Assembly: GCF_004348515.1 (NCBI RefSeq)
Contig: NZ_SMKH01000035.1
Span: 1-39,041 of the forward strand
From: Actinomadura sp. KC345
GTDB lineage: Bacteria > Actinomycetota > Actinomycetes > Streptosporangiales > Streptosporangiaceae
Direction of reading: 5' to 3'
DNA: 39,041 nt
A model generated the notes under the pieces. The model was not told where the DNA came from, made no database searches, and saw only the letters and a program-made list of their open reading frames with translations. The translations under genes were made by a program, and so were the position numbers. Below are positions 15,969 to 19,595 of this stretch, in pieces; positions within the stretch are counted from its first letter, which is position 1; each line of letters opens with the position of its first letter.

Positions 15969-16067
15969 CGTGTGTCCCATCTCCTGAATGCGTGGCGCTG
16001 GGTGCTTGTCCGGTGCAGCACCCGGGTCGCGCCTCCCATTCCGCCCGCCGATGTGGAATCGCTCTCG

Positions 16068-17087
16068 TCAGGAGTCGGCCAGATCCTTGATCGCGCGCAG
16101 TGTGGGCTCGTCCTTCACGCCGGCGATCAGCACGGTGCTGACCGGGCTGTCGCGCCACAGCTGGAGCCGCTCCTTGATCCGTCCGATGGGGCCGAGCAGG
16201 GAGATCGAGTCGGCCAGCTCGTCCGGCACCGCCTTGACCGCCTCGTCGCGGCGGCCGTCGAGGAAAAGTTCCTGGACGCGGGCGGCCTGCTCCGCGTAGC
16301 CGAGCCGGCCGATCAGGTCGAGGTGGAAGTTGCGGTCGCGGGCGCCCATCCCGCCGATGTAGAACGCGAGCGGGATCTTGGCGAACTGGAGCGCGGACTC
16401 CAGGTCGTCGGTGACGATCGTGGTGACGGTCGCGGCGATCTCGAAGCCGTCCGGGCGGCCCGCCAGGGATTCGCCGAACACCGCGTCGATCTGCTGCGGG
16501 TCGACGAACAGCGGCAGCCACCCCTGCGCGATCTCGGCCGACATCGCGACGTTCTTCGGCCCCTCGGCGCCCAGGTAGACGGGGATCTCCGGGCGGACGG
16601 GGTGCACGATCGACTTCAGCGGCTTGCCGAGGCCCGCGCCGCCCGGGCAGGGCAGCGGGTAGTGCGGGCCCTCGCTGGTGACGGGCGTGTCGCGGCGCCA
16701 CACCTGCCGGACGATGTCGAGGTACTCGCGGGTGCGGGCGAGCGGTTTCGGGAACGGCTGCCCGTACCACCCCTCGACGACCTGCGGCCCGGACGCGCCG
16801 AGCCCGAGGATCATCCGCCCGCCCGACAGCGCGTCCAGCGTGAGCGCGTGCATCGCGGTCGCCGCGGGCGTGCGCGCGGAGATCTGGACGACGGCCGTAC
16901 CGAGCCTGATCCGAGAGGTACGTGCCGCGTACCAGGCCAGCGGGGTGAACGCGTCCGACCCGTAGGCCTCCGCGGTGAACACCGAGTCGTACCCGCACCG
17001 TTCGGCGGCCAGCACGGTCTCGGTCTGGTCGTCGACGTCGCGCTGCCAGTAGCCGACGTTGATGCCGAGCTTGAGTTCCGCGGTCAC
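16068..17087 (-). CDS. LLM-class F420-dependent oxidoreductase (Rv3520c-like)
   Basis: A 339-residue luciferase-like (TIM-barrel) oxidoreductase expected to use coenzyme F420. Diagnostic stretches are GYDSVFTAEAYGSDAFTPLAW, LGTAVVQISARTPAATAMHA, LSGGRMILGLGASGPQVVEG and KPLARTREYLDIVRQVWRR. From memory these closely resemble M. tuberculosis Rv3520c, a gene of the KstR (cholesterol catabolism) regulon. That comparison could not be run here, but a perfect KstR-type palindrome lies in this gene's promoter (17122-17135). GTG 17087 has GGAGGG upstream. The substrate is unknown. It probably leads an operon with the acetolactate-synthase-like and AI-2E-family genes. Confidence 0.9.
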   Translation of the reverse strand: MTAELKLGINVGYWQRDVDDQTETVLAAERCGYDSVFTAEAYGSDAFTPLAWYAARTSRIRLGTAVVQISARTPAATAMHALTLDALSGGRMILGLGASGPQVVEGWYGQPFPKPLARTREYLDIVRQVWRRDTPVTSEGPHYPLPCPGGAGLGKPLKSIVHPVRPEIPVYLGAEGPKNVAMSAEIAQGWLPLFVDPQQIDAVFGESLAGRPDGFEIAATVTTIVTDDLESALQFAKIPLAFYIGGMGARDRNFHLDLIGRLGYAEQAARVQELFLDGRRDEAVKAVPDELADSISLLGPIGRIKERLQLWRDSPVSTVLIAGVKDEPTLRAIKDLADS

Positions 17088-17121
17088 GTTGCACCCTCCG
17101 GTTGTCGACGCACCGCGATAC

Positions 17122-17135
17122 TAGAACAGGTTCTA
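17122..17135. promoter_or_regulatory. KstR-type operator palindrome
   Basis: TAGAACAGGTTCTA is a perfect inverted repeat and fits the published KstR motif TNNAACNNGTTNNA at every defined base. It partly overlaps a minus-strand -10 element TAGTAT (17118-17123), 35-48 bp before the GTG start of the oxidoreductase at 17087. KstR is a TetR repressor of steroid catabolism released by cholestenoyl-CoA-type ligands. A KstR homologue is not identified in this window. Confidence 0.7.
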
Positions 17136-17195
17136 TTTTCCGGGAAGGCCGGGGCCGCGGCGGGGGGCGCCGCGGCCCCGGACCGGTCGGTCTCG

Positions 17196-17396
17196 CTAGT
17201 CGTTCCTGATCGCGACCAGCAGGGCCCGCCAGGCGCGCGGCGTCAGCACCAGCGCCGGTCCGTCGGGGTCCTTGGAGTCGCGCACCGCGCGAAGGTCGTC
17301 GGACAGTGGCGCCACCTCGACGCACTGGTCGCCGCTCCCGCTGTGGGACGACGTGCGCCAGGGGGCTCCGGTGAGTTCGCGCTGCAGGTTGGTCAC
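17196..17396 (-). CDS. DUF397 small protein
   Basis: A 66-residue DUF397 protein: WRTSSHSGSGDQCVEVAPL, VRDSKDPDGPALVLTPRAWRAL. Such proteins are encoded beside WhiJ-like XRE-DUF5753 regulators in actinomycetes and are thought to bind or modulate them; the mechanism is not settled. GTG 17396 overlaps the stop of the regulator gene by four bases (GTGA), so the two are co-translated. It is the last gene of the pair. Confidence 0.92.
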   Translation of the reverse strand: MTNLQRELTGAPWRTSSHSGSGDQCVEVAPLSDDLRAVRDSKDPDGPALVLTPRAWRALLVAIRND

Positions 17397-18238
17397 GGGC
17401 TGCTCCTTGCTGCCTCGGCGATGAGGTGCGCGGAATCCTCGGGGGACAGTGCGGCCGCCTCGATCCTCTCGAAGCGGTCCCTATGTTTTGCTATTGCCTC
17501 CGCACTCTCAAGGTAAACGTCACCCATGGTGCCCTCTACATAGGCGATATCTGGGTCTGCGGGGTCCGGATACGACAATATGGTGAATCGTCCGTCTAGG
17601 CCCGCATGTTCCTCCGCCGTGTATGGAAGTACTTGAATCGACACGGATGGGCGGGTCGCCGCGGCGGTCGCGAGGGCGTCCAACTGGGCGCGCATCACCT
17701 CCGTGCCGCCGATCTGACGGTGCAGGACCGCCTCGTCGAACACGACCTGCAGGCGCGGCGCGTCCGTCCGGTCGAGCAGGGCCTGGCGGATCTTGCGGGC
17801 GGCGATGCGGCGCTCGATGTCCTCCGGGCCGGGCAGCAGCCGGCCGGCGGTGATCACGGCGCGGGAGTACGGCTCGGTCTGCAGGAGCCCGTGCACGAGC
17901 TGGGGGTCCCAGGTGCGGATGTGCGACGCCTCGTCCTCCAGCGCCACGTAGCTGCCGGCGAAGACGTCCTGGTAGGCCGTCCACCAGCCGCGCTGGCCGG
18001 CCTGCCGGGCGAGGGTGATGAGGGCGTCGCGGGCCGGGCTCGGGACGCCGTAGAGGTCGAGGATGTCGGCGATGTCGCCGGGTTTGGGGCGCGTCTGGCT
18101 GGTTTCGAGGCGGGAGACGGTGGCTCGCGACCAGTCGAGCCGATCCGCCACCTCCTGCAGGGTCAGGCCCTGCTCCTCTCGCAGTTTGCGGAGCTCCCGC
18201 GCCAGACGGCGGCCACGGACGGTGGGGCGGTAGGTCAT
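17393..18238 (-). CDS. WhiJ-like helix-turn-helix regulator (XRE-DUF5753)
   Basis: A 281-residue regulator. The N-terminal XRE helix-turn-helix reads LRKLREEQGLTLQEVADRLDWSRATVSRLE; the remainder is DUF5753 (WDPQLVHGLLQTEPYSRAVI, FDEAVLHRQIGG, SIQVLPY, IAYVEG). Paralogues of this type, with a DUF397 partner and an anti-sigma-like ATPase, form the WhiJ/AbaA-type clusters that influence development and antibiotic production in Streptomyces. ATG 18238 has no ribosome site; a CAGACT sequence eight bases upstream could be a -10 element giving a leaderless mRNA. A perfect inverted repeat (18241-18259) covers that spot and suggests autoregulation. Confidence 0.92.
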   Translation of the reverse strand: MTYRPTVRGRRLARELRKLREEQGLTLQEVADRLDWSRATVSRLETSQTRPKPGDIADILDLYGVPSPARDALITLARQAGQRGWWTAYQDVFAGSYVALEDEASHIRTWDPQLVHGLLQTEPYSRAVITAGRLLPGPEDIERRIAARKIRQALLDRTDAPRLQVVFDEAVLHRQIGGTEVMRAQLDALATAAATRPSVSIQVLPYTAEEHAGLDGRFTILSYPDPADPDIAYVEGTMGDVYLESAEAIAKHRDRFERIEAAALSPEDSAHLIAEAARSSP

Positions 18239-18240
18239 GG

Positions 18241-18259
18241 GAGTGGAGTCTGACCACTC
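18241..18259. promoter_or_regulatory. Inverted repeat over the xre start region
   Basis: GAGTGG (18241-18246) and CCACTC (18254-18259) are perfect inverted arms separated by seven bases, ending two bases before the regulator's ATG. The spacer holds the possible -10 element. Likely autoregulatory operator. Confidence 0.55.
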
Positions 18260-18331
18260 TCGACGCGCGCCACAACGCGATTGACGAACCCGGCAGGAAG
18301 GGGTGAGCAATTCTGCGGAGGCGGTTGCGCT

Positions 18332-18346
18332 CGTGAGAATCTCACG
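18332..18346. promoter_or_regulatory. 15-bp perfect palindrome in the xre/ATPase intergenic region
   Basis: CGTGAGAATCTCACG, a perfect palindrome around one central base, about 88 bp before the ATPase gene start and 94 bp before the divergent regulator start. It is well placed to control either promoter; the binding protein is unknown. Confidence 0.5.
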
Positions 18347-18433
18347 ACACGCTTACTTCCGTGACCGTCCGGGGACCCACCGTGACCATCCGGCCGGTCG
18401 CGTGCCCGGGCACGTAGACCGCGGGAGGAACCC

Positions 18434-18979
18434 GTGCAGACCACTCCAGCCGACCTGTCAGCGCAGACCATGGCCGACGCCATGGACGACGACGCCCCCG
18501 ACGACGCGCGTGCCCCCGCGGGCAGCAGGCCCGGCTGGGTCTGGGCCCTCCCGGGCGGCCCCGGATGCGCGGGCCACGCCCGCGCGGTCCTGCGCGTCGC
18601 GCTCCCCTCGCTGGGCGTGTCGCGCGACGTGATCGCGGACGCGCAGCTCATGGTCAGCGAACTGGCGACGAACGCGCACCAGCATGCCGGCGAGCACGGC
18701 CCCCACGAACTGTGGCTCTACGCGGCGGGGGACGAACCCTGCGCCGGCGGGGGCGACGCCGTCGGCGAGGTCCGGTGCGCCGTCTTCGACGCGCTCGTCG
18801 ACGCGTCCCTTCCCGGCTATTCGTGGACGTCCGGGGACTGCGGTCGCGGGCTCGGCATCGTCCACGAGCTGTCGGAGGGGCAGTGGGGCACGCGGCGGAC
18901 GGTGTCGCGGCTCGGGCCGCCCGTCCGCGGCAAGGCCGTCTGGTTCGCCGTGCCCGGATCGGTCGCGGCCTTCCCCTGA
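18434..18979 (+). CDS. ATP-binding anti-sigma-type regulator (HATPase_c family)
   Basis: A 181-residue protein of the GHKL/RsbW-like family. The N-box is visible as LMVSELATNAHQHAG (with the Mg-binding Asn) and the G-box as CGRGLGIVHELSE. Family members act as anti-sigma kinases or related switches; many actinomycete copies sit beside WhiJ-like regulators, as here. The first 35 residues are acidic and likely disordered. GTG 18434 follows GGGAGGA. Divergent from the xre-DUF397 pair, sharing a 195-bp control region with two palindromes; convergent with the tetR gene at 18999. Confidence 0.88.
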   Translation: MQTTPADLSAQTMADAMDDDAPDDARAPAGSRPGWVWALPGGPGCAGHARAVLRVALPSLGVSRDVIADAQLMVSELATNAHQHAGEHGPHELWLYAAGDEPCAGGGDAVGEVRCAVFDALVDASLPGYSWTSGDCGRGLGIVHELSEGQWGTRRTVSRLGPPVRGKAVWFAVPGSVAAFP

Positions 18980-18998: not shown

Positions 18999-19595
18999 TC
19001 AGCCCTCTTCGAGGGCCGGGCCTATCTCGCTGACCAGGGTGTGCAGTGACCGTGCGAGCAGGGTGTGCACCTGCTCGCGGTCGAGCGTCTTCTCCTGGAG
19101 CCACTGCCGCGTCGCCGCGTCCGCCAGGCCGGAGTAGGTGCGCAGGACGGCGCGCAGCGTCTCGGTCGGCTCCGGGACCCCCAGGACGGCGAGCATGTGC
19201 TCGACCGTCTGGTCGCGGAACCGGTTGACGATCCGCAGCAGCTCCGGGTCCTGCCCGAACCCCTCGGCGTCGAGCGCCGCGAACCAGGTGGTGGCGTTCC
19301 GCTCCGCCGCGTCGAGGAACAGGTTCACGCACAGCTCCACCGCCTCGGGAAGCGCCATCCGCTCGTCCGGCGGCGGCGCCTTGAGCGCGGCCGACGCCGT
19401 CAGCCCCTGGACGACCTTGAGGAACAGCTCCCGCTTCGTCCCGAAGTAGTAGTGGATCAGGCCGCGCTGGACCCCGGTCTCGCGCGCGATCGCGGCGGTG
19501 GACACCTCGGCGTAGGGCAACTCGGTGAACATCCGCCGCGCGACGTCCAGAATCTGGGCACGCCGCTCGTCCGGGGACAGGCGCTGGTAGCTCAC
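18999..19595 (-). CDS. TetR-family transcriptional regulator
   Basis: A 198-residue TetR repressor: RRAQILDVARRMFTE, then VSTAAIARETGVQRGLIHYYFGTKRELF in the recognition region, and a C-terminal ligand domain without recognised specificity. The GTG at 19595 has no ribosome site; a TAGGCT -10 element ends seven bases upstream, so the mRNA is probably leaderless. The inverted repeat 19599-19614 lies right over that promoter and is the likely autoregulatory operator. The cobalamin genes diverge from it, but there is no evidence that it controls them. Confidence 0.92.
   Translation of the reverse strand: MSYQRLSPDERRAQILDVARRMFTELPYAEVSTAAIARETGVQRGLIHYYFGTKRELFLKVVQGLTASAALKAPPPDERMALPEAVELCVNLFLDAAERNATTWFAALDAEGFGQDPELLRIVNRFRDQTVEHMLAVLGVPEPTETLRAVLRTYSGLADAATRQWLQEKTLDREQVHTLLARSLHTLVSEIGPALEEG

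Follow-up and report, generated by a model that had tools for sequence, protein, structure and literature searches.

The stretch of Actinomadura sp. KC345 DNA considered here (39,041 bases, hereafter the window) carries a KstR-type palindrome in front of an F420-type oxidoreductase gene. This raises the question of whether the site is a functional operator, which repressor reads it and how far the controlled unit extends. The best explanation, to which a probability of about 0.88 is assigned, is that the palindrome is a genuine KstR operator and the oxidoreductase gene an outlying member of a KstR side-chain regulon, with the downstream acetolactate synthase (ALS) and AI-2E-family genes lying outside the unit. 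The following features are involved.

16038..16042, minus strand: GGAAT element, conserved, 5' of the ALS gene; proposed boundary of the KstR-controlled unit, itself outside it
16068..17087, minus strand: gene of a putatively F420-dependent LLM-class oxidoreductase of the Rv3520c family (GTG start, 339 aa; TIGR03559, PF00296)
17118..17123, minus strand: putative -10 element TAGTAT, by its sequence; largely conserved past the operator, with which it shares two bases
17122..17135, no strand assigned: KstR-type operator TAGAACAGGTTCTA, by perfect motif, known EMSA probe 14-mer and conservation
17141..17146, minus strand: putative -35 element TTCCCG, by its position and a CTTCC block conserved in 29 aligned upstream regions

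The 14-mer TAGAACAGGTTCTA at 17122–17135 matches the 14-bp KstR palindrome TnnAACnnGTTnnA exactly and is its sole perfect occurrence in the whole window. Dinucleotide shuffles give a mean expectation of 0.01 per window, and a match was present in 1 of 100 shuffles; the perfect KstR-type operator described in an earlier note on this DNA is thus borne out. The same 14-mer is contained in probe tgtcgagtagaacaggttctaacaacggt from the Rv3520c/Rv3521 region of M. tuberculosis, for which the available text of Kendall 2007 (PMC1995591) reports positive KstR binding by EMSA. Across the genome of the window (8.27 Mb, 600 contigs), TnnAACnnGTTnnA occurs 41 times, compared to 5 times for the pattern read backwards, and the strict palindrome TAGAACnnGTTCTA 6 times compared to 0. 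Many of the 41 sites are intragenic according to a rough ORF call, the scripted gene calls being a heuristic that uses G+C content by codon position.

The operator ends 34 bp from the GTG start of the oxidoreductase gene and occupies the spacer of a TTCCCG-17 bp-TAGTAT arrangement (17146–17141 and 17123–17118). Position and conservation among relatives make this pair a putative promoter, which agrees with the proposed overlap of operator and promoter, whereas a sigma-70 consensus scan detected no promoter around the operator. In mycobacteria, the kstR motif is likewise described as partly overlapping the -10 region (PMC1995591, text available).

The protein encoded at 16068–17087 matches NCBIfam TIGR03559 (F420_Rv3520c) over its full length with 450.7 bits (cut-off 335) as well as Pfam PF00296, confirming the assignment as an F420-type, Rv3520c-like oxidoreductase, and is the only match to its own sequence in the genome at E ≤ 1e-90. 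It is 57% identical to the TIGR03559 member of Mycobacterium terramassiliense. A predicted model, built from 23 aligned sequences, has a mean pLDDT of 82.9, with four short segments under 50, the longest comprising residues 144–157. Foldseek ranks 1–9 in the PDB are F420-dependent enzymes with 16–26% identity, and rank 10 is a luciferase; the nearest solved folds, despite low sequence identity, are those of Mer and the F420-dependent secondary alcohol dehydrogenase Adf. F420 is therefore a putative cofactor, by resemblance of fold and family. The available portions of the literature on Rv3520c state no function for this family; in one report, Rv3520c served as negative control in a Baeyer-Villiger assay (PMC9044951, text available). 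Two further F420 LLM genes of the genome, both of the Rv2161c family (TIGR03619), have KstR-type sites just 5' (L009:5626 and L014:3528).

Comparison within the genus revealed strong conservation of the operator. In a set of 36 genomes, own genome included, the oxidoreductase gene was found in 31 (E ≤ 1e-90), and 29 of these 31 carry the strict palindrome TAGAACnnGTTCTA 5' of the gene, conserved amid diverging flanks. Only exact-palindrome loci entered the column profile of the aligned upstream regions, so that its 100% columns exist by construction and the count of 29/31 is the one unbiased figure for operator conservation. G007 keeps repressor and oxidoreductase gene with zero palindromes genome-wide, and G020 displays a decayed site, AAGAACGTGTTCTC, 5' of the gene.

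A wider survey covered the best 80 of 579 relatives of the oxidoreductase, the closest named ones being four Actinomadura with 87–93% identity. A perfect motif lies within 300 bp upstream in nine of these 80: the four Actinomadura, Microtetraspora, Thermoactinospora, Microbispora, Mycobacterium terramassiliense and Catenulispora. The site of Catenulispora is TGTAACGTGTTCTA, a TnnAACnnGTTnnA match, while the orthologues of Microtetraspora, Thermoactinospora, Microbispora and M. terramassiliense have the strict palindrome, which in the last species is identical to the 14-mer of the window. One-mismatch motifs precede six more of the 80, from two Streptosporangium, Herbidospora, a Frankia (at -101) and two gammaproteobacterial loci; the latter two sites (8/12 letters) look like chance matches. 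The remaining 65, which include two Nonomuraea, Nocardiopsis, all eight Amycolatopsis and all eight Streptomyces, have neither form within 300 bp upstream. Relatives of about 54–63% identity in Gammaproteobacteria, Myxococcota and other MAGs (part of L180–L243, again among the best 80 of 579) are nearly all devoid of an upstream KstR-type site. Seven more distant relatives were examined as well: directly upstream, G042 has the identical 14-mer, again a strict palindrome, and G036 a one-mismatch site; in G050 and G052 a perfect motif lies one gene further upstream; and the relatives in G040, G056 and G057 have no upstream motif, nor has a paralogue in G021.

A candidate for the cognate repressor is encoded elsewhere in the genome. 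With a stretch of M. tuberculosis KstR taken from a PDB alignment as query, the best match is G000:C66:49764-50315 (106.6 bits, 36% identity), followed by three paralogues with 84.4, 83.9 and 72.5 bits and by weaker TetR matches. The profile NF033703 ranks the four proteins in the same order, with 138.9 bits for the C66 type and 111.5 (a copy entered seven profile positions short), 109.5 and 90.4 bits for the others, all below the equivalog cut-off of 280 bits. NF033703 is the best family reported for the C66-type protein, which, because of its score under the cut-off, is termed KstR-like here rather than a KstR equivalog.

Upstream of the repressor gene (G000:C66:49686-50321), the site TAGAACnnATTCTA is found in 30 of 30 loci, a copy in G013 that came in two pieces in the search output being left out; it agrees with the motif in 11 of 12 letters, i.e. 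with one mismatch, a value that no shuffle attained. One half of this site contains a fixed A in 30/30 loci (L117–L146), at which the oxidoreductase site differs. In the own genome, the repressor gene adjoins a gene resembling most closely the steroid-22-oyl-CoA synthetase CasI as well as FadD1 and FadD17 (all below cut-offs), and an acyl-CoA dehydrogenase gene pair. One of these two dehydrogenases has Tcur3481 as its closest PDB match, followed by 4x28. The C66-type repressor thus combines a motif in its own promoter with lipid-degradation neighbours, as known for KstR. The search for a KstR homologue suggested by the earlier note was accordingly positive, with the repressor's own site one mismatch off, and this repressor is most likely the protein that binds the palindrome. 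A second KstR-like paralogue, the C255 type (L005, L115), has 3bjb as best PDB match and lies near KshA-, KstD- and FadA5-like genes; the motif is found upstream in 0 of its 20 loci, the best site reaching 8/12 letters. A separate regulon, for ring or cholate genes, may be under its control.

Repressor and oxidoreductase occur together. The C66-type repressor (at least 76% identity) is present in 31 of the 36 genomes, exactly those that possess the oxidoreductase, and both are missing in the remaining five (G011, G012, G017, G029 and G035); Fisher's test gives p = 2.7e-6 for this co-occurrence, ignoring kinship. An rpoB tree comprises 33 genomes, without G019 and G032, in which rpoB gave no match at the threshold used, and without G005, represented by a second, divergent rpoB copy. 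On this tree the absences correspond to four changes, a number forced by well-supported branches, and hence to four separate joint absences. In independent pairs repressor and gene agree in 4/4 cases, with a sign-test p of 0.125, the minimum attainable with four.

Palindromes number zero in G007, G011, G012, G017 and G029, one in G020 and G035, and two to nine in the other 29 genomes; four of the repressor-less genomes thus have none and G035 has one. In G011, G012, G017 and G029, oxidoreductase and operator are gone and a DUF397-type gene stands directly 5' of ALS (L278, L280, L283, L284). G035, an assembly of 1050 contigs, has ALS in another setting and keeps FadA5 and one palindrome; its joint absence may reflect an assembly gap.

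Scanning the genome for the motif at steroid genes, as the earlier note had proposed, placed operators 5' of a CYP125-like gene (L033:1375), whose best PDB matches are CYP125 enzymes, and of a FadA5-like gene (L033:5660), best matched by FadA5. Other motif-fronted genes encode the two Rv2161c-family oxidoreductases, an SDR, a nitronate-monooxygenase-like protein and a distant relative of cholesterol oxidase that scores far under its cut-off, while some targets seem non-steroidal (peptidase M14, MBL-fold, phosphotransferase). A perfect TAGAACnnGTTCTA lies beside MBL-fold and phosphotransferase-like genes at L031:4684 of the own genome, assigned there by Pfam, and a similar-looking layout is seen in G018 and G035 (L160:7374, L162:1561). 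Methyltransf_24 genes are situated near KstR-type sites in two genomes (L013:6091, L157:16309).

KshA-like and KstD-like genes are also present in the own genome, the latter below the cut-off of its model. The distance to steroid genes could be measured in G021, which is a single contig: the oxidoreductase gene lies at 1.69 Mb, the repressor at 4.85, FadA5 at 4.87 and 5.16 and KshA at 5.17 Mb, in line with the original description of the gene as remote from any steroid cluster.

Across the genus, 20 of the 36 genomes possess KshA (PF19298, E ≤ 1e-40). These 20 and G034, 21 in all, have a KstD-like gene (NF005882, 1e-120); a single KstD-like gene, in G024, exceeds the NF005882 cut-off. Repressor and oxidoreductase are retained in 11 genomes that have no full KshA (G003, G007, G008, G016, G018, G019, G023, G027, G028, G030 and G034; weaker KshA matches in G016, G007, G008 and G027), ten of which also have no KstD-like gene. 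FadA5 is kept in ten of the 11, G007 being the exception, and in G003 FadA5 and a CYP125-like gene, both with operators, reside on the contig of the repressor. Since these 11 genomes keep repressor and gene without full KshA, the oxidoreductase tracks side-chain genes and not KshA or KstD, and a tie to ring degradation, as judged by these two enzymes, was rejected. The proposed steroid-linked function consequently narrows to side-chain genes (repressor, FadA5, CYP125) and does not extend to the ring enzymes KshA and KstD.

The extent of the controlled unit is a separate matter. It was originally proposed that the operator drives an operon of oxidoreductase, ALS and AI-2E-family gene, and indeed the three genes share one strand, and 25 of the 30 genus loci that could be tested (with 1.5 kb on the downstream side in 29, 3 kb in one) have ALS close behind the oxidoreductase. 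However, the gap between oxidoreductase and ALS, 87 bp in the window and longer in several relatives, contains a conserved GGAAT. This element turns up in the 150 bp preceding ALS at 36 of 42 loci, with some genomes counting twice, compared to 8% of shuffles, at positions -54 to -87 and mostly near -62; the scan did not find it in G012 and G035 (two loci each) or in L071 and L073. Of the four genomes cleanly devoid of the oxidoreductase, three have GGAAT by scan and the fourth (G012) by eye. Moreover, ALS is retained in 5/5 genomes without oxidoreductase and is missing (E ≤ 1e-150) in G023, which has the oxidoreductase, and in all nine other genomes with sufficient sequence, ALS has no AI-2E relative (E ≤ 1e-3) at its side. 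On these grounds ALS and the AI-2E gene were both removed from the unit, and the complete operon is considered improbable, although transcription may read through from the oxidoreductase into ALS. On the far side of the operator, the interval 17196–18979 holds a DUF397 gene (Pfam), a gene with a HATPase_c_2 match just under the cut-off and a third gene without Pfam hit in the given frame, by eye a putative XRE-type regulator; similar genes are found there in most genus loci.

With respect to the identity of the repressor, the nearest TetR gene to the operator lies within the window itself (18999–19595) and could own the motif and control the oxidoreductase locally. Of the 29 genus genomes with the operator, 17 have a gene of this type near the oxidoreductase, compared to 0 of 6 operator-less loci examined (Fisher p = 0.019, uncorrected for kinship). 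However, 12 of the 29 perfect-operator genomes have none within about 5 kb, the promoter region of the window gene contains no motif even with one mismatch, even its best NCBIfam matches score low (BetI at 36.5 bits), none reaching its cut-off and none being KstR, and the motif also recurs at sterol genes elsewhere in the genome. Local ownership is very unlikely in view of the missing neighbours and the motif-free promoter. A similarly small chance is given to control by another KstR-like paralogue (C255, C111 or C571 type), for instance the one beside KshA and KstD. All three score on NF033703 and the C255 type belongs to a steroid-ring cluster. However, its 20 loci are free of the motif, G029 has it but not the oxidoreductase, and a PF17925 hit of its score (at least 98 bits) occurs in none of the 11 genomes that retain gene and C66-type repressor in the absence of a full KshA; on these grounds the C255 type is judged an unlikely owner. 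As for the C111 type, PF17925 hits of 60–75 bits occur in just two other genus genomes, and neither the C111 nor the C571 locus of the own genome has a perfect motif. Least probable of all is that the palindrome is functionless, a product of chance or a fossil. Other motif matches do lie inside likely genes of this genome, and the gene persists in G007 and G020 although the site does not, but conservation in 29/31 genomes amid diverging flanks, joint absence with the repressor and the EMSA-positive identical 14-mer in another genus (PMC1995591, text available) argue against it.

For control by the C66-type repressor, the following sequence of events can be envisaged; binding, repression, inducer and enzyme reaction are what we infer here. 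The KstR-like TetR repressor, encoded elsewhere, would bind the palindrome as a dimer, occluding the spacer together with the first bases of the -10 element, and thereby shut off the oxidoreductase gene. Upon entry of sterol, leaky side-chain oxidation by CYP125- and FadD-type enzymes of the regulon would yield a CoA thioester, which would release the repressor and allow the oxidoreductase to be made. KstR itself is released by 3-hydroxy-cholest-5-en-26-oyl-CoA (PMC6678751, text available).

Gene order in other genera offers hints at the substrate. In G052 the oxidoreductase gene directly follows a gene for a 702-residue acyl-CoA dehydrogenase (Pfam), whose promoter region contains the perfect motif, and the layout is the same in G050 by ORF call. 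A ChsH2-type OB-fold gene is the divergent neighbour of the oxidoreductase gene in G042, with its perfect site, and in G036, with its one-mismatch site. Judged by gene names (PMC1995591, text available), Rv3520c and Rv3521 are likewise divergent, and the accessible part of PMC6429209 lists Rv3521 and ltp4 (Rv3522) after Rv3520c; its cholesterol-gene table also lists IlvX (Rv3509c), which the available main text of Kendall 2007 (PMC1995591) does not mention. In PMC6593523 and PMC8708139 (text available), ltp3 and ltp4 are presented as aldol lyases that act on side chains with a C24 branch. From the acyl-CoA dehydrogenase and ChsH2-type neighbours together with the ltp3/ltp4 context, a side-chain intermediate was guessed as substrate, and the best guess for the reaction is an F420-linked reduction or oxidation of such an intermediate. 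A thiolase-like neighbour in L150, without PDB match at E ≤ 1e-25, might by analogy of gene order be likened to Ltp4.

These observations lend themselves to a wider, tentative reading, according to which some Actinomadura possess a side-chain-only module without KshA and KstD, in which the F420 enzyme reduces or oxidises an intermediate of side-chain breakdown, possibly one from plant sterols branched at C24. The module would be an old one and consist of repressor, FadD17-like enzyme, acyl-CoA dehydrogenase pair, FadA5, CYP125 and F420 enzyme; KstR control of the Rv3520c-family enzyme would form part of it, not of steroid ring degradation, and would extend far beyond mycobacteria and rhodococci.

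In comparison with the KstR regulon of Mycobacterium, the Actinomadura system shares the 14-mer, the gene family, the position of the operator over the (here putative) -10 element and the presence of operators at sterol side-chain genes. In contrast, the repressor is only 36% identical to M. tuberculosis KstR, its own site has one fixed change (TAGAACnnATTCTA), and the oxidoreductase gene is detached from steroid genes and lies beside an ALS gene. A literature search found no work treating KstR together with Actinomadura.

That the oxidoreductase is a new member of the known KstR regulon, detached from its cluster, is well supported. A published view, in the text available, traces KstR back to an ancestor shared by mycobacteria and rhodococci (PMC3388012); the presence of a KstR-like repressor, operator and targets in Actinomadura, and of the operator in other Streptosporangiales, calls this view into question, and horizontal transfer may lie behind the distribution. 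The joint presence and absence of gene and repressor and the separation from ring degradation emerge as by-products. For the uncharacterised Rv3520c family, the locus provides an independent evolutionary argument for a role in sterol side-chain catabolism, and the gene order in other genera, with acyl-CoA dehydrogenase or ChsH2-type neighbours, points to candidate substrates.
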